DNA of 64,000 bases from Sulfurimicrobium lacus (GTDB taxonomy: Bacteria > Pseudomonadota > Gammaproteobacteria > Burkholderiales > Sulfuricellaceae), in contig NZ_AP022853.1 of NCBI RefSeq assembly GCF_011764585.1, positions 1,037,501-1,101,500 on the forward strand, written 5' to 3'. Position numbers and translations under genes: made by a program. The stretch's first letter is position 1. Each line of letters begins with the position of its first letter. The notes beneath the pieces are model-generated. The model was given only the letters and a program-made list of their open reading frames with translations, was not told the DNA's origin and made no database searches. This document shows positions 1-7,866 of the stretch, piece after piece.

Positions 1-621
1 CCGGGCGCGTTGGATGAATGCCTCGCCGCCAAGGAAAATCTGCCCTTCCAGCTTATCCCATATGCTGGGCAAGCCCACGCCGACCCGCACGAAATCCCGA
101 TAACCGAGACGAGCCTGATCCCGTTGCCGGGAAAATTGCCCAAGTATCCAGCCAGTCTGCAACCAGGGTGGTGCGGGTACCGCTCCGACCATCGCCGGAT
201 AGCTGCTCCACGACCATTCTCCCGCATCACTGACCATCCCGGCACGCACCGGGTTGAGCACCACATAGCGCGCCAGTTCCAGGAGATAGCTGTCCTTCTC
301 CACGAGTATGGCCTTGTACCTGCCCTGGAAAACATGGCCGATCCGCCGATGGGTGCGGTTTATCCACTGCGTGTAGACCCCGTTGAGCTGGCGCATACCT
401 TGCGCGAGATTGCCTTCGGGCGTCTCGACGACCACATGGTAGTGGTTGGTCATCAGGCAATAAGCGTGGCAAATCCAGTTGAAACGCCTGCAGACCTCGC
501 CAAACAGCGTCAGCCAAGCCTCGCGGTCACTATCGGAAAAATAAATATCCTCGCGCCGGTCACCACGGGAAGTTACGTGGTACAGGCCGCCGGACAGTTC
601 AATGCGTAGGGGTCTCGCCAT
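1..621 (-). CDS. REP-associated tyrosine transposase (RAYT, Y1_Tnp family), 3' end outside the window
   Basis: The frame opens at ATG 621 and stays open to base 1, giving 207 residues without a stop. Residues 1-20 (MARPLRIE, then GGLYHVTSRGD) are the usual RAYT start. HYH at residues 60-62 is the HUH metal-binding motif and Y119 in ARYVVLNPVR is the expected catalytic tyrosine. The middle (GMRQLNGVYTQ, HVFQGRYKAILV) also matches the family. RAYTs are single-strand DNA transposases linked to dispersed REP palindromes; they are usually domesticated single copies. The gene lies just beyond the distal end of the integron array and on the same strand as the cassettes, but no complete attC joins it to them. 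The visible part is intact. The C-terminus cannot be judged. Confidence 0.9.
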   Translation of the reverse strand, partial: MARPLRIELSGGLYHVTSRGDRREDIYFSDSDREAWLTLFGEVCRRFNWICHAYCLMTNHYHVVVETPEGNLAQGMRQLNGVYTQWINRTHRRIGHVFQGRYKAILVEKDSYLLELARYVVLNPVRAGMVSDAGEWSWSSYPAMVGAVPAPPWLQTGWILGQFSRQRDQARLGYRDFVRVGVGLPSIWDKLEGQIFLGGEAFIQRAR

Positions 622-708
622 GAGGCAAGTATGAGGGGGTGTGTGTGATTTTGCAAGACCTGACCCCGTTGCCTGTTGGCGCATTTTGGGGGAGTCCATA
701 TACGAGAT
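622..708. other. Junction between RAYT gene and truncated cassette array
   Basis: This gap carries the RAYT upstream region and, on the cassette side, sequence that should have been the rest of the last attC site but cannot fold back onto the half core at 709-715. The string gcaagacctgacccc at 654-668 resembles sequence often found beside such transposase genes (recollection, not checked). No gene is seen. Confidence 0.4.
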
Positions 709-715
709 GTTAGGC
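709..715 (-). other. Half core of a truncated attC (attC5)
   Basis: On the minus strand the bases read GCCTAAC, the exact complement of the GTTAGGC core that opens cassette 5 at 1198-1192. This is therefore the first half of the cassette 5 recombination site. No partner GTTRRRY core or folding arm follows within 90 bases, so the site is cut short. Confidence 0.7.
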
Positions 716-1183
716 CCCGATTGCGATTGCATATGGTGATTCGCCAGGATTGTCGTGACGAGACCGGAAATACACACGGTAATTGCGGGACTCCAATTGT
801 CTATGGACAAATGCCCCATCCGTCATGATGCGGTAGCTTGCCGACTCAAGGAGCCTTATGCCTTGGGCCTTCGCAATATCTAGTATTGAACGCCAAGTCG
901 TCGCGCCAGGCGCCAATAGTAGTTCTTGAGGTGGCTCTCCAACCGCATCATCATCGTTATCGACGTCAAACGCGAATGCGCGCTTCAGGGCACCAATAGA
1001 CGGCGCCCAAATCACCAGAGTGATGATCGGCTCTTTGGCAGGGGAGAGGTCTTGAAAGTGATGTGCCGTCATCAAGTAGGCGCCCTGCACCTGATAGATG
1101 TTTTCGGTAACCGAAGTGGCTTCTTCCAAGAGGCTACTCAGCGGCTTCCCAATATGCGATCGCAGTTCGCGCCAAGCCGTCAT
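710..1183 (-). CDS. Integron cassette 5 gene, unknown function
   Basis: It encodes 157 residues with no signal peptide or membrane segment, so it is probably cytosolic. I do not recognise the family. Visible features are an N-terminal helical stretch (ELRSHIGKPLSSLLEEA), an acidic DVDNDDDA patch near residue 75 and an Arg/Tyr-rich C-terminal third (RIMTDGAF, RNYRVYFRSRH). The gene fills its cassette almost completely. Its ATG lies 8 nt after the attC4 core and its TAA stop is part of the next half core (709-715). No Shine-Dalgarno sequence fits in the 8 nt leader, so translation may rely on the upstream attC region or be leaderless-like. The strand is that of the other cassettes. It is a real cassette by structure, but its function is open. 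Confidence 0.75.
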   Translation of the reverse strand: MTAWRELRSHIGKPLSSLLEEATSVTENIYQVQGAYLMTAHHFQDLSPAKEPIITLVIWAPSIGALKRAFAFDVDNDDDAVGEPPQELLLAPGATTWRSILDIAKAQGIRLLESASYRIMTDGAFVHRQLESRNYRVYFRSRHDNPGESPYAIAIGA

Positions 1184-1191
1184 AGGTCGGG

Positions 1192-1278
1192 GCCTAACGT
1201 AGAGCTAACCGGCGCTGCGCGGCTTTATCGTGCAGCGTCCAGCGACCAAAGGGAGCGCGGTTGAGCGCCGGGTTAGGT
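1192..1278 (-). other. attC site of integron cassette 4 (attC4)
   Basis: This 87 bp imperfect palindrome has ACCTAAC at one end (1278-1272, minus strand) and GTTAGGC at the other (1198-1192). Between them the strand folds through the arms GGCGCTCAACC and GGTTAGCTC. It is nearly identical to the sites at 4135-4221 and 4688-4774, differing at about five positions. The ACCTAAC half matches the GTTAGGT core that starts cassette 4 at 1745-1739. Confidence 0.88.
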
Positions 1279-1281
1279 ATG

Positions 1282-1704
1282 TCATCGCAGGAACCATGCC
1301 ACGGCAGTAGCTGCAATTGTGTTTAGCACGAGATAGCAGACCGCTGCATTGAGCAAGCCGATAATTAGCGACAACGGAAGCCTCGCTTGCAGAACAGTTT
1401 TGATTGCAAGGACTCCCGCGGCGAGGGCGAATATTGGAAAAACCACGAACAGCGTTGGAGATGAGCGTGCTAGCACTTGGAAAGAAAACACGACGACAAG
1501 CCCCATTGCTATCAAAGACGACACACTGACTTTAATAGACTCCGCGATAGATGCGGGTCGTGAAGCGAACGCGCATACAAGCTTTGTTGTCATGGTAGTT
1601 GATATGGTAATTGCCGTCACCGCCGTAAAGAAAATGCTTCCGAGTGCTGCCGGCATGGGCAGTACCACAGCCAATAGCATTCCGACAAAAATCATGTAGA
1701 TCAC
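1282..1704 (-). CDS. Integron cassette 4 gene, small membrane protein of unknown function
   Basis: It encodes about 140 residues and is strongly hydrophobic, with four likely membrane segments: an N-terminal one, then around residues 45-65, 75-95 and 110-135. Loops carry few charges (TTKLVCAFASRP, KTVLQARLP). I chose GTG 1704 because AAAGGAAG lies 6 nt upstream; TTG 1719 and ATG 1695 are alternatives in the same frame. The cassette begins at the core 1745-1739 and ends at attC4. The IS element inserted in attC3 now sits just upstream, so read-through from the integron promoter is probably blocked and the gene may depend on the IS for transcription. No family was recognised. Confidence 0.7.
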   Translation of the reverse strand: MIYMIFVGMLLAVVLPMPAALGSIFFTAVTAITISTTMTTKLVCAFASRPASIAESIKVSVSSLIAMGLVVVFSFQVLARSSPTLFVVFPIFALAAGVLAIKTVLQARLPLSLIIGLLNAAVCYLVLNTIAATAVAWFLR

Positions 1705-1738
1705 AAATCTTCCTTTCAACAGTTCAAAATGGACGAAT

Positions 1739-1745
1739 ACCTAAC
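1739..1745 (-). other. Distal half core of attC3, split off by the IS element
   Basis: GTTAGGT on the minus strand is the R' core of cassette 3's attC. The remainder of that site is at 3535-3608, on the other side of the insertion sequence. The last three bases on the IS side (AAC, 1743-1745) are repeated at 3535-3537. Confidence 0.8.
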
Positions 1746-3534
1746 GACGCTGTAGAAAAAGTATCATCCCCGCATCTTGCCTCAACTGGCCGGGTGCATC
1801 AATATCCATCCATCATGACTTGCCGGATGCACAGGATGGCCCGCTACAAACACATCGACACCAGCCCGCGATTTCTCGCCGTTGACCTGCAACGGCAACT
1901 GAACCCCGGCACCTTCGAACACGCCCTGAATCACCTGCTCGATCACGAACTCGACCTGAGCGGCTTCGACAGCCGCTTCTGCAACGACCGCACCGGCGCA
2001 GCCGCCTATCCCCCCGCCATGCTGCTCAAAGTAGTCCTCTTCGCCTACAGCCGCGGCATCGTCAGCAGCCGGGCCATCGAAAGGGCATGCCGCGAACAGA
2101 TCACTTTCATTGCCCTGTCCGGCGACAGCCAGCCGCACTTCACCACCCTCGCCGAATTTGTCTCATCGCTGGGCGACGACATCGCACGCCTCTTCGCCCA
2201 GATCCTCTACATCTGCGACCGACAAGGCCTGATCGGCCGGGAGATGTTCGCCATCGACGGCGTCAAGCTGCCCAGCAACGCCTCCAAAGCCAAAAGCGGC
2301 ACCCGCGCCGACTTCGAACACCAAGCCGCCAAACTGGAAAGCGCCGCCACGGCCATGCTCGAACGGCATCGCCAGGAAGACCTGCGCACCATCGAGCCCG
2401 ACCTCAACGAGAAAGAAACCCAGCGCATCGCACGCCTGCAAACCGACGCCGCGCAAATCCGGCAGTGGCTCGCCGAGCACCCGGACGACCGCAAAGGAAG
2501 CAAAGGCACAACCCGCAAAAGCAACCGCAGCGACAACGAATCCGCCAAGATGGCGACCTCCAAAGGCGTGATACAAGGCTATACCGGCGTCGCCGCCGTC
2601 GATGCCCGGCATCAGATCATCGTCGAAGCGCAAGCCCACGGCACGGGCAGCGAGCAGGAACTGCTCATGCCGGTGGTCAAGGCGATGAAGGACATTCTGA
2701 CAGAGGACACCCTCATCACCGCCGATGCCGGCTACCACAGCGAAGCCAACCTCAAGGCACTGGCCAAGCTGGAAATCGACGCCCTCATCGCCGACAACGG
2801 CATGCGGCAGCGCGATGAACGCTTCCAGGGCCAGGGTAAGCACAAACAGCAACCCGACCCCCTCTACGATAAAGCGCACCCGAAGAAGAAAGCCAAGCAC
2901 TATCGACCGGCGGACTTCACCTACGACGCAGAAACAGGCACTTGCATTTGCCCGGCGGACAAGACGCTCTACCAGAACGGCGCACACTGCATATACAACG
3001 GCTACACGGCAGTGAAATTCCAGGGCGCGCAGCGCGACTGTGTTCCGTGCCTCCACCGAGACAAATGTTTACGCACCCCGGACAAGACCAAGACGCGGCA
3101 AGTCGCGTTCTTCCAAGGCAAAGCCCCTGGTACGCCCGAGACGTACACCGACAAGATGAAGCAACGGATTGACAGCCCTGAAGGGAAAAGCCGGTATGGC
3201 AGACGCTTTGCCACGGTGGAACCGGTGTTCGGCAACCTGCGGCACAACAAACAGCTCAACCGCTTTACGCTCAGAGGGCAAAAGAAGGTGGACGCGCAGT
3301 GGAAGCTCTACTGCCTGGTGCACAACATCGAGAAGCTGGCGCATCATGGGTATGCGCAGTAAAAAAGGGGTGGCAGAACCCCCTAACGCCTACTGCTGCG
3401 TGCCCTGATTGGGTCAGGGCCTCACGCCAACCTTAGTAAAAATACAACCGACTTGCTTATGCTGAAACGGAAACGTTTCAGATAGGGAAAATTTGCCCTG
3501 AAAATGATGGGAAAAAGGGTTTTTCTACAGCGTC
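1746..3534 (+). mobile_element. IS1182-like insertion sequence inserted in an integron attC core
   Basis: The element is 1789 bp with perfect 15 bp terminal inverted repeats (GACGCTGTAGAAAAA at 1746-1760 and its complement at 3520-3534). It is flanked by a 3 bp direct repeat AAC (1743-1745 and 3535-3537). Removing the element and one AAC rebuilds a clean attC end, CCTAACGTCGAAG, which supports these exact borders. It contains one intact transposase gene. Near the right end is a hairpin with 8 bp arms and a GAAA loop (3462-3481). The transposase runs opposite to the cassettes. The family is assigned from the transposase only. Confidence 0.88.
1836..3362 (+). CDS. Transposase, IS1182-like DDE family
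   Basis: It encodes 508 residues from ATG 1836 (MARYKHIDTSPRFL), a start typical of the family; in-frame ATGs at 1815 and 1827 are alternatives. The N-terminal domain (to about residue 115) carries the DUF772-like signature YPPAMLLKVVLFAYSRGI and SSRAIERACRE. Likely DDE residues are D in FAIDGVKLPSN, D in ITADAGYHS and E in VEPVFGNLRHN. A long, charged, helical insertion lies between the first two acidic residues (about 160-240). Before the last one is a Cys-rich patch (CICPADK, CVPCLHRDKCL) that may bind zinc. The gene is uninterrupted and probably functional. Confidence 0.93.
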   Translation: MARYKHIDTSPRFLAVDLQRQLNPGTFEHALNHLLDHELDLSGFDSRFCNDRTGAAAYPPAMLLKVVLFAYSRGIVSSRAIERACREQITFIALSGDSQPHFTTLAEFVSSLGDDIARLFAQILYICDRQGLIGREMFAIDGVKLPSNASKAKSGTRADFEHQAAKLESAATAMLERHRQEDLRTIEPDLNEKETQRIARLQTDAAQIRQWLAEHPDDRKGSKGTTRKSNRSDNESAKMATSKGVIQGYTGVAAVDARHQIIVEAQAHGTGSEQELLMPVVKAMKDILTEDTLITADAGYHSEANLKALAKLEIDALIADNGMRQRDERFQGQGKHKQQPDPLYDKAHPKKKAKHYRPADFTYDAETGTCICPADKTLYQNGAHCIYNGYTAVKFQGAQRDCVPCLHRDKCLRTPDKTKTRQVAFFQGKAPGTPETYTDKMKQRIDSPEGKSRYGRRFATVEPVFGNLRHNKQLNRFTLRGQKKVDAQWKLYCLVHNIEKLAHHGYAQ

Positions 3535-3608
3535 AACGTCGAAGTTCAGGGGCAACCGGAAGCAAGCGAAGCTTGCTGTAGGGCGTCTCCTGGAACGCAT
3601 TGTTGGGC
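3535..3608 (-). other. attC site of integron cassette 3 (attC3), interrupted
   Basis: On the minus strand the site starts with GCCCAAC at 3608-3602, folds through a loop containing the self-complementary AGCAAGCTTCGCTTGCT, and runs up to the IS border. The missing end is 1739-1745. Rebuilt, it is 78 bp. It differs in sequence from the three 87 bp attC sites, so cassette 3 came from another attC lineage. Its GCCCAAC half matches the GTTGGGC core that starts cassette 3 at 4141-4135. Confidence 0.8.
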
Positions 3609-3614
3609 ATCTGT

Positions 3615-4121
3615 TTAGTCACGCCATATACCCTCTACGAGGTCACCTGTTTCGAGAGGATGACCGGCCTTTTTGGCGGCAGCTTTCCACTCTGCCGGTG
3701 AGGGGGCGATAGACTTTGGTTCTAAACCTCCCCATAAGCCAACTTTGATAGCGAATACAACGACACCGCCCGATACGGCAACGGGAGGAACTGATCTCGC
3801 GGCTGTTAGAACTGTTGTCGTAGTCTGGGGATTAAGCATGGGTTTGAAGTCTAGCCAGACATTCGATTTTTGGCCGGGCTTAACAGCCACGACAATAAAA
3901 CCGCCTGTGGGTGGAAAATGAGGCTTGGCTTGAAGAGCTCCTGAAACGGAGCTCTCAATTTCCTTTATGTATGTGGAGAGAGCTGTGACGTCTTGCACGC
4001 GCTCTTGAAGGACAAAGTCTGGTTGAAGCAAAACAATGTTGAAGGTGTGGAGAGCTTCCTCCGCGTAGGCGCCGCTAGCGGAACATGCGAGAGCGAAATA
4101 CAGCACCACCTTTCGAAGCAT
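3615..4121 (-). CDS. Integron cassette 3 gene, exported protein of unknown function
   Basis: It encodes 168 residues from ATG 4121, preceded by AGGAGG 4 nt upstream; longer in-frame starts would run into attC2 and are unlikely. Residues 1-20 (MLRKVVLYFALACSASGAYA) form a Sec signal peptide with cleavage likely after AYA. The mature part has a helical region (DVTALSTYIKEIE) followed by a Gly/Val/Thr-rich, beta-like region (GGFIVVAVKPGQKS, VSGGVVVFAIKVG). A periplasmic or outer-envelope location is likely. No known domain was recognised. It is the last cassette before the IS insertion. Confidence 0.75.
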   Translation of the reverse strand: MLRKVVLYFALACSASGAYAEEALHTFNIVLLQPDFVLQERVQDVTALSTYIKEIESSVSGALQAKPHFPPTGGFIVVAVKPGQKSNVWLDFKPMLNPQTTTTVLTAARSVPPVAVSGGVVVFAIKVGLWGGLEPKSIAPSPAEWKAAAKKAGHPLETGDLVEGIWRD

Positions 4122-4134
4122 GCGCCCTCCTGAT

Positions 4135-4221
4135 GCCCAACGTGGAGCTAACCGGCGCTGCGCGGCTTTATCGCGCAGCGTCCAGCGACTGAAAGGAGCG
4201 AGGTTGAGCGCCGGGTTAGAA
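4135..4221 (-). other. attC site of integron cassette 2 (attC2)
   Basis: This 87 bp site reads TTCTAAC at 4221-4215 and GTTGGGC at 4141-4135 on the minus strand. Outside the cores it differs from attC1 at a single base. The stop codon of cassette 2 lies inside its first core. The TTCTAAC half is the complement of GTTAGAA at the start of cassette 2. Confidence 0.9.
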
Positions 4222-4680
4222 GCGTTCTGTGCCCGCACTTTTTGATTCCTTTCTCGGATTATGTGGCCCGCAGTAGCTGTACCCGGAAACAGTATGATTT
4301 TTCTTCATGTCGTCTGCAATGTTCACCACGAGCTTGAATAGACTACCCCACGTTGCAATTAGAATGTGTTTTCCGGAAGGGTGCTCAGGCTTGAAATCAA
4401 GCTCGATGGTCGCGGAGGCTAACCAGTTTTCCGGAATGCCCTTCGCAGAAAGATGCTTTTTCAGGATTGAGCTGTAGCCGGAAACCAGTTTTGAAAGTTC
4501 TGAACTTGCTGGGATTATTGATTTCGCAAGGAGATCAAGGCGAACTATTTGCACGCCACTCTGTTGCGCAAGAAGACAAAGTTTTCCAATACCCCAATAG
4601 CCACCTACATCGTTGTTGCGGCTTATGAACGAACCATATAACCCGGATGCGATGTTTTTGAGTTCCTTCCGTCGTGCCAT
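4216..4680 (-). CDS. Integron cassette 2 gene, unknown function
   Basis: It encodes 154 residues with no signal peptide or membrane segment. The N-terminus is basic (MARRKELKNIASGLYGSF) and followed by NNDVGGYWGIGKLC. The middle is helical (SSELSKLVSGYSSILKKHL), and a later segment (SGKHILIATWGSLFKLVVN) looks like strands of a small alpha/beta fold. I do not recognise it, although it looks like a conserved cassette-only protein. The ATG is 8 nt from the attC1 core and the TAA stop is part of the attC2 core, so the gene fills the cassette and has no ribosome-binding site of its own. Confidence 0.75.
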   Translation of the reverse strand: MARRKELKNIASGLYGSFISRNNDVGGYWGIGKLCLLAQQSGVQIVRLDLLAKSIIPASSELSKLVSGYSSILKKHLSAKGIPENWLASATIELDFKPEHPSGKHILIATWGSLFKLVVNIADDMKKNHTVSGYSYCGPHNPRKESKSAGTERF

Positions 4681-4687
4681 GGCGAGC

Positions 4688-4774
4688 TTCTAACGTAGAG
4701 CTAACCGGCGCTGCGCGGCTTTATCGCGCAGCGTCCAGCGACTGAAAGGAGCGAGGTTGAGCGCCGGGTTGGGC
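4688..4774 (-). other. attC site of integron cassette 1 (attC1)
   Basis: This 87 bp site reads GCCCAAC at 4774-4768 and GTTAGAA at 4694-4688 on the minus strand. The inner arms pair as in attC2 and attC4. The GCCCAAC half is the complement of the GTTGGGC attI-junction core at 5210-5204, so cassette 1 is a complete excisable unit. Confidence 0.9.
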
Positions 4775-4775
4775 A

Positions 4776-5180
4776 TCACTTCAGCGATGCTTGGCAATCG
4801 GGGGATGTGCGGTAAATATTCCCCGTTCTTGGGGAGATGAATACGCCGTAATCTCGATCGTAGTTCTTTGGGTGGGCATGACCGGGAACCACGGCTACAC
4901 AGCCAAAATATAGAACGGCATACAACTCGCTATTGATATTCGAGTTATGGAAGCCAACTGTTGTGTCAGAACCGCCGACATCCTTAATCCCTATTTGAAG
5001 CGCCTTCCCGAATTTATATGTGCAATAGCGCCCGTTGTTGGGAGTTTCCTCGCACTTCGTTGCCTCAATTGCACGTTGAACCAAACGGTCTTGAAGCGAC
5101 TGTTGTGCGGAGACTGATCCGGTAGCAAGGAGCAATGCTAGTGCAGGGGTAATAACGCGCAGGATGATTTTGATGTGCAT
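4776..5180 (-). CDS. Integron cassette 1 gene, exported Cys-containing protein of unknown function
   Basis: It encodes 134 residues. Residues 1-25 (MHIKIILRV, then PALALLLATGSVSA) form a Sec signal peptide with cleavage likely after VSA. The mature part has four cysteines (KCEE, RYCTYK, FGCVAV, PDCQAS), which could form two disulphides in the periplasm. Aromatic and Gly-rich segments such as DYGVFISPRTGNIYR suggest beta structure. It is the first cassette, 24 nt from the attI core, so it should be the best expressed from an integron promoter. The Shine-Dalgarno is weak (CAGGTCTCGCAA before ATG). No family was recognised. Confidence 0.75.
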   Translation of the reverse strand: MHIKIILRVITPALALLLATGSVSAQQSLQDRLVQRAIEATKCEETPNNGRYCTYKFGKALQIGIKDVGGSDTTVGFHNSNINSELYAVLYFGCVAVVPGHAHPKNYDRDYGVFISPRTGNIYRTSPDCQASLK

Positions 5181-5203
5181 TTGCGAGACCTGTTTATTGA
5201 GAT

Positions 5204-5308
5204 GCCCAACGTAAAGTAGACACCCTAAAAAGCGCCGGTAAAGGCACCTTCGAGGTGTACAATCTGGAATCTTTCCTGCAATGCCTTGTTTTTATTCGAG
5301 GTGAAATT
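5204..5308 (-). other. attI recombination site and intI/cassette promoter region
   Basis: The minus strand reads TACGTTGGGC, a GTTRRRY core, at 5204-5210, just where cassette 1 begins and on the integrase side. The 98 bases between this core and the intI start hold no gene and should contain the rest of attI and the divergent promoters. TACAAT near 5258 could be a -10 for intI and TTGCAG at 5282-5277 (minus) a weak -35 for the cassettes. Neither has a good partner, so the core is well supported and the promoters are only suggestions. Confidence 0.7.
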
Positions 5309-6307
5309 ATGGCGCACCCTAATTTTCCAGATAAAAGCACCACGATAAATCCTCCCAAATTACTCGATCAAGTCCGCGATAAGTTGCGTGTGAAGCACTA
5401 CAGCATTCGTACGGAACAAACTTATGTTGACTGGATTAAACGTTATATTTTCTTTCATGGCAAGCGCCACCCGAAAGATATGGGGGCGCACGATGTTGAG
5501 GCGTTTCTAACCCATTTGGCGGTAAACGGCAAGGTTGCCGCTTCAACACAAAATCAAGCGAAGAGCGCGTTGCTGTTCCTTTACCGCGAAGTGTTGGAAA
5601 TTCAATTGCCATGGCTGGACAACGTCACGCAGGCAAAAGCACCAAAGCGTTTGCCTGTGGTGTTGACGATGAGCGAGGTGCAGTCTGTGTTGTCGCGTTT
5701 GAGAGGCACACATGCGCTGATTGCTTCCTTGTTGTATGGAGGGGGAATGCGCTTGATGGAGGCGGTGCGGTTACGGGTGAAGGACGTGGAGTTTGCGCGG
5801 CACGAGATCGTGGTGCGTGAGGGCAAGGGGTTCAAGGATCGGGTGACGATGTTGCCTGAGGCAATGGTTGTGCCGCTCAAAGCGTATTTGGCTAGAGTGA
5901 AGGCCATGCACGATGAGGATTTGGCGCAGGGTTTCGGCGAGGTGTATCTGCCTTTTGCGTTGGACAAGAAATATCCAAATGCTGGACGTGAATGGGGCTG
6001 GCAATATGTTTTTCCTTCCGGAAATTTGTCAGTCGATCCGCTTTCCGGCAAGACCCGCCGACATCATATTGATGAGAAAGGCGTGCAGCGCGCGGTGAAG
6101 CAGGCGGTGCGCGATGTGGGCTTGGTCAAACCGGCCACGCCGCACACGTTTCGCCATTCCTTTGCGACACATTTATTGCAAAGCGGCTACGATATACGCA
6201 CTGTGCAGGAATTGCTGGGGCATTCGGATGTCAGCACGACAATGATCTACACCCATGTTCTTAACCGCGGCGGAAAGGGTGTGCAAAGCCCGCTGGATTC
6301 CCTGTGA
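5309..6307 (+). CDS. intI: Integron integrase IntI (tyrosine recombinase)
   Basis: It encodes 332 residues from ATG 5309, preceded by GAGGTGAAATT; an upstream in-frame ATG at 5255 lacks a better site. The N-terminal SAM-like DNA-binding domain spans about 15-100 ([22 protein letters not shown]). Catalytic residues are R148, H279, R282, H305 and Y314. The IntI-specific insert that separates integron integrases from XerC/D is present at about 215-250 ([16 protein letters not shown], then KTRRHH). The C-terminus ([17 protein letters not shown]) is complete. The enzyme would recombine attC with attI and attC with attC. It is transcribed away from the cassettes, as in known integrons. Its TGA overlaps the GTG of sdhE, which is unusual. 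Base use is less GC-rich than in the genes to its right. Confidence 0.97.
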
Positions 6308-6549
6308 TCGGGGAAGACGCATCTCTCCTTAACCGCCTGCGCTGGCACTGCCGGCGCGGGATGCTGGAACTTGATCTGGTGCTGGCGCGCTTTCTGGAGG
6401 AAAATTACGCTGGATTGACGGCGCAGCAGCGGCAGGAGTTCGAAAATCTGCTGCAACTGGAAGACCACGAGTTGTGGCAACGGGTTCGCGGCGAGGCGAG
6501 CACGGCATCAGTGGTGGAGCGGCTGTTGCGCGGCTGTCACGATAACTGA
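6304..6549 (+). CDS. sdhE: FAD assembly factor SdhE
   Basis: It encodes 81 residues from GTG 6304, which overlaps the stop of the integrase (GTGA). The family core is present: [20 protein letters not shown] contains the RGxxELD motif needed for covalent flavinylation of succinate dehydrogenase SdhA. In betaproteobacteria this gene normally follows sdhCDAB and precedes gltA; here gltA follows, but the integron lies where sdhB is expected. The length is normal, so the gene is intact. Expression may depend on transcripts entering from intI. Confidence 0.9.
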
Positions 6550-6570
6550 GTAAAGAATTTGGAGAAATAT

Positions 6571-7866
6571 ATGGCAGAGCAGCGCAAGGCTTATCTCGAT
6601 CTGGGCGATGGCCGTGGGCCGATAGAGTTACCGGTCTATTCCGGCACCGCTGGTCCGGATGTGGTGGATATCCGCAGCCTGGCCAAACTTGGCGTGTTTA
6701 CCTACGACCCCGGCTTCATGTCGACGGCGAGCTGCAATTCCGGCATTACCTACATCGACGGGGATGCCGGAATTTTGCTCTACCGCGGCTATCCCATCGA
6801 GCAACTGGCCGAGCACGCCGATTTCATCGAGGTCTGCCATCTGCTGTATTACGGCGAACTGCCGGACGCGGCGCAGAAAGAGTCGTTCGACACGATCATC
6901 CGCACCCACACCATGGTGCACGACCAGATCAACAACTTCTTCCGCGGTTTCCGCCGCGACGCGCACCCCATGGCGGTGATGGTGGGGGTGGTGGGCGCCT
7001 TGTCGGCGTTTTACCAGGATTCGGCCAACGTGGGCGACCCGCGGCACCGCGAAATTTCCGCGCACCGCCTGATCGCCAAGGTGCCGACCATCGCGGCCAT
7101 GAGCTACAAGTACAACATGGGCCAGCCGTTCGCCTACCCGCGCAACCGCTTGAGCTACGCGGCGAATTTCCTGCACATGATGTTCTCCACGCCGTGCGAG
7201 GAATACGAGCCCAACCCGGTGCTGGTGAAGGCGCTGGACCGCATCCTGATCCTGCACGCCGACCACGAGCAGAACGCTTCCACCTCCACGGTGCGTCTGG
7301 CCGGATCGAGCGGGGCCAACCCCTTCGCCTGCGTGGCGGCGGGCATCGCCTCCCTGTGGGGACCGGCTCACGGCGGCGCCAACGAGGCGGTGCTGAAAAT
7401 GCTGGAAGAAATCGAGGATGTTTCCAACATCCCCAAATTCATCGCGCGCGCCAAGGACAAGAGCAATCCCTTCCGCCTCATGGGCTTCGGCCACCGCGTC
7501 TACAAGAACTTCGACCCGCGCGCCCGGCTCATGCGCCAGACCTGCCACGAAGTGCTCAACGAACTGGGCATCTACGACGACCGCCTGTTCAAGATCGCAC
7601 TCGAACTGGAGCGGATTGCGCTGGAAGACGAGTATTTCATCGAGAAAAAGCTCTACCCCAACGTGGATTTCTACTCCGGCATCATCCTGCGCGCCATGAA
7701 CATCCCGACCAACATGTTCACCGCGATTTTCGCCATCGCGCGCACCATCGGCTGGATCTCGCAGTGGGACGAAATGATCACCGACCCGGAACAGAAAATC
7801 GGCCGTCCGCGCCAGCTCTACCGCGGCGCGGCGCAGCGCGAGTTGGTGCCGCTGAGTAAGCGGTGA
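6571..7866 (+). CDS. gltA: Citrate synthase
   Basis: It encodes 431 residues from ATG 6571, with GGAG 6 nt upstream; TTG 6559 is less likely. It condenses acetyl-CoA with oxaloacetate. The sequence is of the type II, E. coli-like hexameric kind: an N-terminal beta extension, [29 protein letters not shown] with one catalytic His, [11 protein letters not shown], and [15 protein letters not shown] with a second His. The C-terminal part ([11 protein letters not shown]) is complete. It sits 21 bp behind sdhE and ahead of sucA, giving a TCA-cycle operon. Confidence 0.97.

Follow-up and report, generated by a model that had tools for sequence, protein, structure and literature searches.

What is unusual about the integron of Sulfurimicrobium lacus, and how did it come to be there? 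The DNA analysed here (the window) is the 64-kb stretch at positions 1037501-1101500 of the single 3.83-Mb contig of this bacterium, in which an earlier note had described a complete integron with five gene cassettes of unknown function, treating the cassettes as its notable part. That an integron occupies the locus is near certain, and its integrase and array stand as described. Two corrections concern the attC recombination sites of the array: the third is split by an insertion sequence (IS) that had gone unmentioned, and the fifth is reduced to its R'' box. The cassettes do lack family matches, but they are ordinary, as is the integron part of the locus generally; the unusual part is the IS, an IS1182-family element lying in an attC site. 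Judging from sequence comparisons, the locus is very probably a sedentary chromosomal integron that carries, in one of its attC sites, a member of a distinct, attC-targeting lineage of the IS1182 family.

An IS1182-family element in the third attC site

Sites were recognised with an attC model built from other genomes. Candidates were collected from integron loci with a simple finder requiring arm pairing, and 42 of them, chosen by eye, were aligned, with no window sequence in the model. All four attC sites proposed in the earlier note were recovered by this model (28.1-45.1 bits), each on the minus strand with paired R''/R' and L''/L' arms; Rfam at curated cut-offs gave no match in the window. 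The element and the attC sites are the following.

1746-3534, plus strand: IS1182-family element, 1,789 bp, ends GACGCTGTAGAAAAAG and GTTTTTCTACAGCGTC; AAC repeats at 1743-1745 and 3535-3537
1836-3362, plus strand: transposase, 508 amino acids, presumed DDE motifs intact; NF033551, 274.6 bits, cut-off 270
4688-4774, minus strand: attC 1, 37.7 bits
4135-4221, minus strand: attC 2, 41.6 bits
3532-3608, minus strand: attC 3, R' box split by the IS, attC body at 3535-3608, 28.1 bits
1192-1278, minus strand: attC 4, 45.1 bits
709-715, minus strand: attC 5, R'' box only, the rest lost at a transposase element; read from the sequence

The insertion point is exactly the core triplet GTT of attC 3, and a 3-bp direct repeat flanks the element. 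On the cassette strand, the R' box of this site reads CGTT-IS-GTTAGGT, with the element between cassettes 3 and 4, and the split site is still scored as a whole attC. Terminal inverted repeats are present together with what we take to be the DDE motifs of the transposase, whose family assignment by NF033551 is only just over the cut-off. The best-scoring families were IS1182 and DDE_Tnp_1_6, and IS110/IS1111 was absent among the families listed. The transposase had no sequence match in the PDB and no relative in viral contigs by pattern scan; a single distant relative was found on plasmids.

A protein search of the whole S. lacus genome gave two further transposase fragments. In the loci examined, four IS left ends are clear, and each of them adjoins YYAAC, which is what remains of the R' box of an attC; those at L008, L011 and L012, located by DNA comparison, each lie directly at this motif. 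A fifth, diverged remnant to the left of the window (L006; 81% over 68 nt, the match beginning at IS base 12) stands beside CCAAC, its exact edge being uncertain. The genome holds at least 13 attC matches, counted from 150 scored of 2,516 first-look candidates, a list from which the window's own 28-bit site is missing. Five clearer attC loci lie away from intI (L008 8178-10977, L009 6247-6318, L011 630-695, L012 2093-3008 and G000:C1:2115561), and a weak sixth lies at C1:2442515. IS1182 left-end remnants occur at three of the five clearer loci, two of these remnants being at the attI-proximal edge of the attC loci as read.

Related copies, controls and miniature derivatives

The order (300 genomes) and the class (369 genomes) were searched with the transposase alone, each search yielding 12 genomes with matches, S. 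lacus among them. The related set comprises 29 loci in 23 genomes; 27 of the transposases were aligned (40-100% identical), and of the catalytic residues both D are conserved in all 27 and E in 26. Both IS ends are readable in 25 loci (neither end in L154, L158 and L168, the right end only in L167), and 23 of these 25 copies carry GTT on both flanks, read on the attC strand. With default filters, 15 of the 25 have an attC match that stops at the IS end (14.4-60.4 bits). With filters off, a run on 12 loci gave a weak match exactly at the IS end in L160, L163, L164 and L171 (8.8-13.1 bits, E 0.4-4.3). Judged by the GTT strand, 21 copies have the attC body upstream of the transposase gene and four have it downstream (L010, L144, L145 and L149), and L010, L144 and L145 cluster in the transposase tree with support of 100/99.

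Two of these loci have further features. At L160 (1310-1360, genome G552), an IS copy and another IS end stand in tandem with one AAC/GTT triplet between them, as if the site beside the attC body were reusable; searching 11 genomes in the neighbourhood of G552 gained little. At L149 (1823-2404), the attC-like arm beside the IS enters a group II intron region with two Rfam group-II-D1D4 matches, so that this attC may have been invaded twice.

A second sample started from the DNA of the IS end. The pattern GANGCTGTAGAAAAAC matched in 36 of the 369 genomes of the class, and the reversed pattern gave two matches in total. Among 30 loci fetched, 32 IS ends were readable, and 29 of these are directly preceded by GTT (11) or AAC (18). 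Of 29 pattern loci searched (L218, the S. lacus copy, was excluded), five have an attC match that runs up to the IS end (L222, L224, L227, L234 and L241); in loci fetched at the end that looks towards the next cassette, the attC body may fall outside the fetched stretch. The pattern and transposase samples overlap, and copies are repeated (for example, L222, L229, L233 and L234). Additionally, seven inward-facing pairs of ends, 166-223 bp apart in five genomes, resemble miniature inverted-repeat transposable elements (MITE-like elements; L247-L253). All seven have an exact GTT or AAC repeat, and five have an attC model match at an end, one of them strong (22.7 bits).

The controls were 28 other IS1182-family loci from 299 genomes of the phylum, remaining from 30 after L206 (a related copy) and L209 (the S. 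lacus element) were dropped. Their 117.6 kb contains no attC match up to E 10, and a GTT repeat occurs in none of the 26 loci with guessed ends. Control copies L182, L183, L185 and L188 lie between inverted flanks that are terminator-like by eye, as reported for IS1272 and TnSha1 (PMC4923244, PMC5678879; the papers cited here are represented by excerpts of their text). IntI is present in 5 of the 28 control genomes as against 19 of the 22 related genomes. In a transposase tree of 27 related and 24 control rows (without L154, L168, L203, L205, L207 and L211), the related set falls on one side of a single branch with support of 100/100. A target-specific IS1182 lineage thus appears well supported: the position, the direct repeat, the attC context, the single clade and the MITE-like derivatives are all features read directly from the DNA and protein sequences.

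How the element may find its target

The crossover by IntI takes place at GTT in the R' box, the same triplet at which the element lies. We infer that the transposase itself selects attC and that folding of the site matters. The enzyme would recognise attC, the core RCGTT probably being read along with the arms or the folded strand, and would insert the element next to GTT in the R' box. Cuts staggered by 3 bp around this triplet would then duplicate it, giving the order attC body-GTT-IS-GTTRRRY-next cassette.

Insertion in this manner may leave attC usable. Many related copies begin GAGGC or GAAGC, so that GTTGARG, close to the consensus GTTRRRY, is retained at the attC body, whereas the window copy begins GACGC and its attC body reads GTTGACG, a poorer fit. 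With a partly consensus R' box kept, IntI may still use the attC, and the IS may travel ahead of the next cassette. Transport of the IS by IntI at the head of the following cassette is speculative, as are roles in seeding clusters. Taken as a whole, the bolder proposal is tentative and fairly unlikely: these 'IS1182-attC' elements would be dedicated parasites of integrons that read the folded attC and leave it competent, and would at the same time ride as passengers of cassettes under IntI, exporting blocks of cassettes and seeding attC clusters that lack an integrase.

Several other explanations could account for the position. One is that the transposase reads the short core RCGTT alone, copies outside arrays being lost by selection and copies within arrays doing little harm. 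The triplet GTT is found even in the 6 of 25 copies without a recognised attC, and 3 of the 32 pattern-sampled ends lie elsewhere, both of which are compatible with such a relaxed target. However, RCGTTR occurs 94 times in the window, or about 5,600 times per genome by scaling, and is thus approximately 400 times commoner than recognised attC sites, a ratio that uses the lower bound of at least 13 attC matches. The hexamer alone therefore fails to explain where the IS is placed, and a further feature of attC, its arms or folded strand, is plausibly read besides. Noncoding RCGTT sites should also exist outside arrays, and the bare-core explanation is unlikely.

It is less likely still that IntI places the elements, by recombination of IS circles carrying GTT at their joined ends with attC R' boxes. 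This would likewise yield GTT on both sides, the position is the IntI crossover triplet, and IntI accompanies the element in most related genomes. Against it, IntI was not found in G397, G470 and G520, two of which have more than 150 contigs; the MITE-like elements of 166-223 bp retain the transposase ends; and other IS1182 members are reported to reach hairpins by their own transposase (PMC4923244, PMC5678879). Lastly, arrays are rich in mobile elements and the related set was selected by similarity, but it is hardly credible that ISs merely gather in arrays with their exact position coincidental. The triplet is constant in 23 of 25 copies, where chance would give 1 in 64 per side, as well as at 29 of the 32 pattern-sampled ends and in all 7 MITE-like elements, and no attC match lies beside the 28 other IS1182-family loci.

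A number of observations weigh against targeting of attC by a distinct lineage. A single query served to assemble the related set by similarity. Within this set, L152 and L155 are flanked by GTT and GTC, lacking the second GTT; no attC match at the IS end was found in six of the 25 copies (L144, L149, L159, L165, L169 and L170), L159 having a flank of only 3 bases; and only 12 of the 25 were significant (p<=0.05) in a structure test on the joined flanks. In the pattern sample, L239, L242 and L245 each have one end away from GTT or AAC, and apart from the strong one, the attC matches at MITE-like ends are weak (E 0.19-0.99). Moreover, 23 of the 28 control genomes belong to another class, so the availability of attC differs between the sets and the IntI contrast is partly taxonomic. 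Control copies L190, L197, L198 and L203 also begin GAGGC, and this end therefore need not be an adaptation to attC. The training set of the attC model was picked by eye from a noisy finder, whose candidates numbered 116 for the expected strand and 108 for the opposite one, so that it does not discriminate in its raw form. In the alignment, 96 cells were changed on both sides (shuffled mean 33.7; none of 500 shuffles reached this number), with no clear excess in pairs with two-sided change (8 vs 7.4 shuffled) or in further pair types (24 vs 21.6). As the rows had been selected for pairing, this covariation signal arises partly by construction.

The host integron and comparable elements

The remaining features of the array and its flanks are the following.

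5309-6307, plus strand: intI, integron integrase, 332 amino acids; TIGR02249, 491.5 bits; alignment with PDB 2a3v
5204-5210, minus strand: putative attI core GTTGGGC, read from the sequence
4776-5180, minus strand: cassette 1 gene, 134 amino acids, signal-peptide-like start by eye; no family above cut-off
4216-4680, minus strand: cassette 2 gene, 154 amino acids; relatives on 13 plasmid records
3615-4121, minus strand: cassette 3 gene, 168 amino acids, signal-peptide-like start by eye; no family above cut-off
1282-1719, minus strand: cassette 4 gene, 145 amino acids, membrane-like by eye; no family above cut-off
710-1183, minus strand: cassette 5 gene, 157 amino acids; no family above cut-off
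1-621, minus strand: part of a REP-associated tyrosine transposase gene that continues in L006; NF047646, 80.5 bits, cut-off 80
6304-6549, plus strand: sdhE, flank of the integron; Sdh5, 75.1 bits; start overlaps the intI stop

The integrase had been identified as IntI with all its catalytic residues and the IntI-specific insert, facing away from the array, and this account is borne out. Its reading frame is open throughout 5309-6307, and it scores 491.5 bits with TIGR02249 (cut-off 265). A Xer recombinase is ruled out, as XerC (153.6 bits, cut-off 335) and XerD (151.3 bits, cut-off 330) both remain below half their cut-offs. The integron integrase of PDB 2a3v aligns with residues 19-331 of 332, with the insert ALxxKYPNA..W.Y.FPS and the motifs presumed to be the catalytic ones in register. 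The array heads away from intI, all five cassette genes being on the minus strand and intI on the plus strand. A consensus promoter scan of 5000-6700 gave one site against 1.2 expected. Elsewhere in the genome, the only other IntI matches are four short pieces in two places, likely other tyrosine recombinases, so that the window copy is the sole full-length match. An IntI match at E<=1e-40 was found in 35 of the 61 genomes searched, S. lacus included.

The array and intI are placed between sdhB-phnA and sdhE-gltA-odhA. The stop of intI overlaps the start of sdhE (6300-6310), an overlap also present in G001 (L026), and the integrase may therefore be coexpressed with sdhE-gltA-odhA. Among the eight genomes compared within the genus (G000-G007), intI directly precedes sdhE in three (G000, G001 and G003), sdhE adjoins sdhB or phnA without intI between them in four (G002, G004, G005 and G006), and G007 has no sdhB in the stretch examined. 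This distribution points to gain or loss at this spot within the genus.

The cassette proteins were reported to have no assignable function, and the searches agree: none of the five matched Pfam or NCBIfam at curated cut-offs, or PADLOC or PHROGs at E<0.05. A defence, phage or known-domain role was rejected on these grounds. On plasmids, cassette 2 has relatives on 13 records (hypothetical or unannotated among the eight listed) and cassette 1 has weak relatives on two (27% identity); cassettes 3, 4 and 5 have none among the plasmid records, and a pattern scan of viral contigs gave no relative of cassette 2. Structure predictions made without an alignment for two cassettes were too poor for a fold search, with mean predicted local distance difference test (pLDDT) values of 36.3 and 44.6. 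In a survey of Xanthomonas, as excerpted, a function could be assigned to only 6.8% of cassette proteins (PMC12444791). Cassettes without a function are thus the norm, and the weight first placed on them was misplaced.

At the left edge of the array, an element with a REP-associated tyrosine transposase, bounded by inverted ends of the GACCCCGT type (window 1-672 and L006 18733-19680), sits in the attC of cassette 5, leaving the R'' box alone. Beyond it, to the left of the window, lies a sixth cassette-like gene (L006 18058-18531, 158 amino acids) with a weak match to PtuB (E 0.022); the attC model gave no match beside this gene.

Mobile elements tied to integron sites are known. The attC-targeting ISs named in the accessible literature are those of the IS1111 group (PMC11187229), described as IS1111-attC (Tetu and Holmes 2008; Post and Hall 2009; via PMC11187229, PMC12444791, PMC11089894 and PMC9229058). 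Like these, the S. lacus element lies at one end of an attC site. However, IS1111 elements have DEDD transposases guided by seekRNA (PMC11187229), whereas the transposase of the element described here is a DDE enzyme of the IS1182 family, and the element itself ends in inverted repeats and is flanked by a 3-bp direct repeat. The name 'IS1182-attC' is proposed for the group, which resembles IS1111-attC in habit and is unrelated to it. Within the IS1182 family, IS1272 and TnSha1 target hairpin-forming sequences (PMC4923244, PMC5678879), and other members targeting palindromes are attributed to Siguier et al. (cited in PMC5678879). IS1272 shares the family name, but in the excerpts it deletes or replaces the hairpin, forms no repeat and has no primary-sequence preference (PMC4923244, PMC5678879). 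The S. lacus element keeps the attC body, forms a 3-bp repeat and has a fixed core triplet; the retained body and repeated triplet rule out stem-loop replacement of the IS1272 type.

Other comparisons are more distant. Group IIC-attC introns are likewise mobile elements tied to attC, but they are retroelements (PMC9229058, PMC7923331). The IS1202 family at pdif/dif also targets the sites of tyrosine recombinases, although it is another IS family and the recombinase is XerC/D (PMC10132070). The sedentary chromosomal integrons of Xanthomonas similarly combine intI, an attC array and mostly unknown cassettes (PMC12444791), whereas the array here is short and lies in the sdh-gltA region of its genus. 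No report tying IS1182 to attC was found among the open-access papers listed, a search whose scope excluded ISfinder and most subscription papers.

Among cassettes of the phyllosphere, 49% of transposases are assigned to the IS5 family in the excerpts of one survey (PMC11089894). Some transposases in surveys of this kind may be attC specialists and not chance invaders. If attC-targeting by the IS1182 lineage is correct, it would add a second means of reaching integron sites, unrelated to the first and used by a DDE transposase from a family that chooses hairpins. It would make it possible to test directly how a folded recombination site is read by a transposase, and it suggests a possible route for cassette clusters out of integrons.

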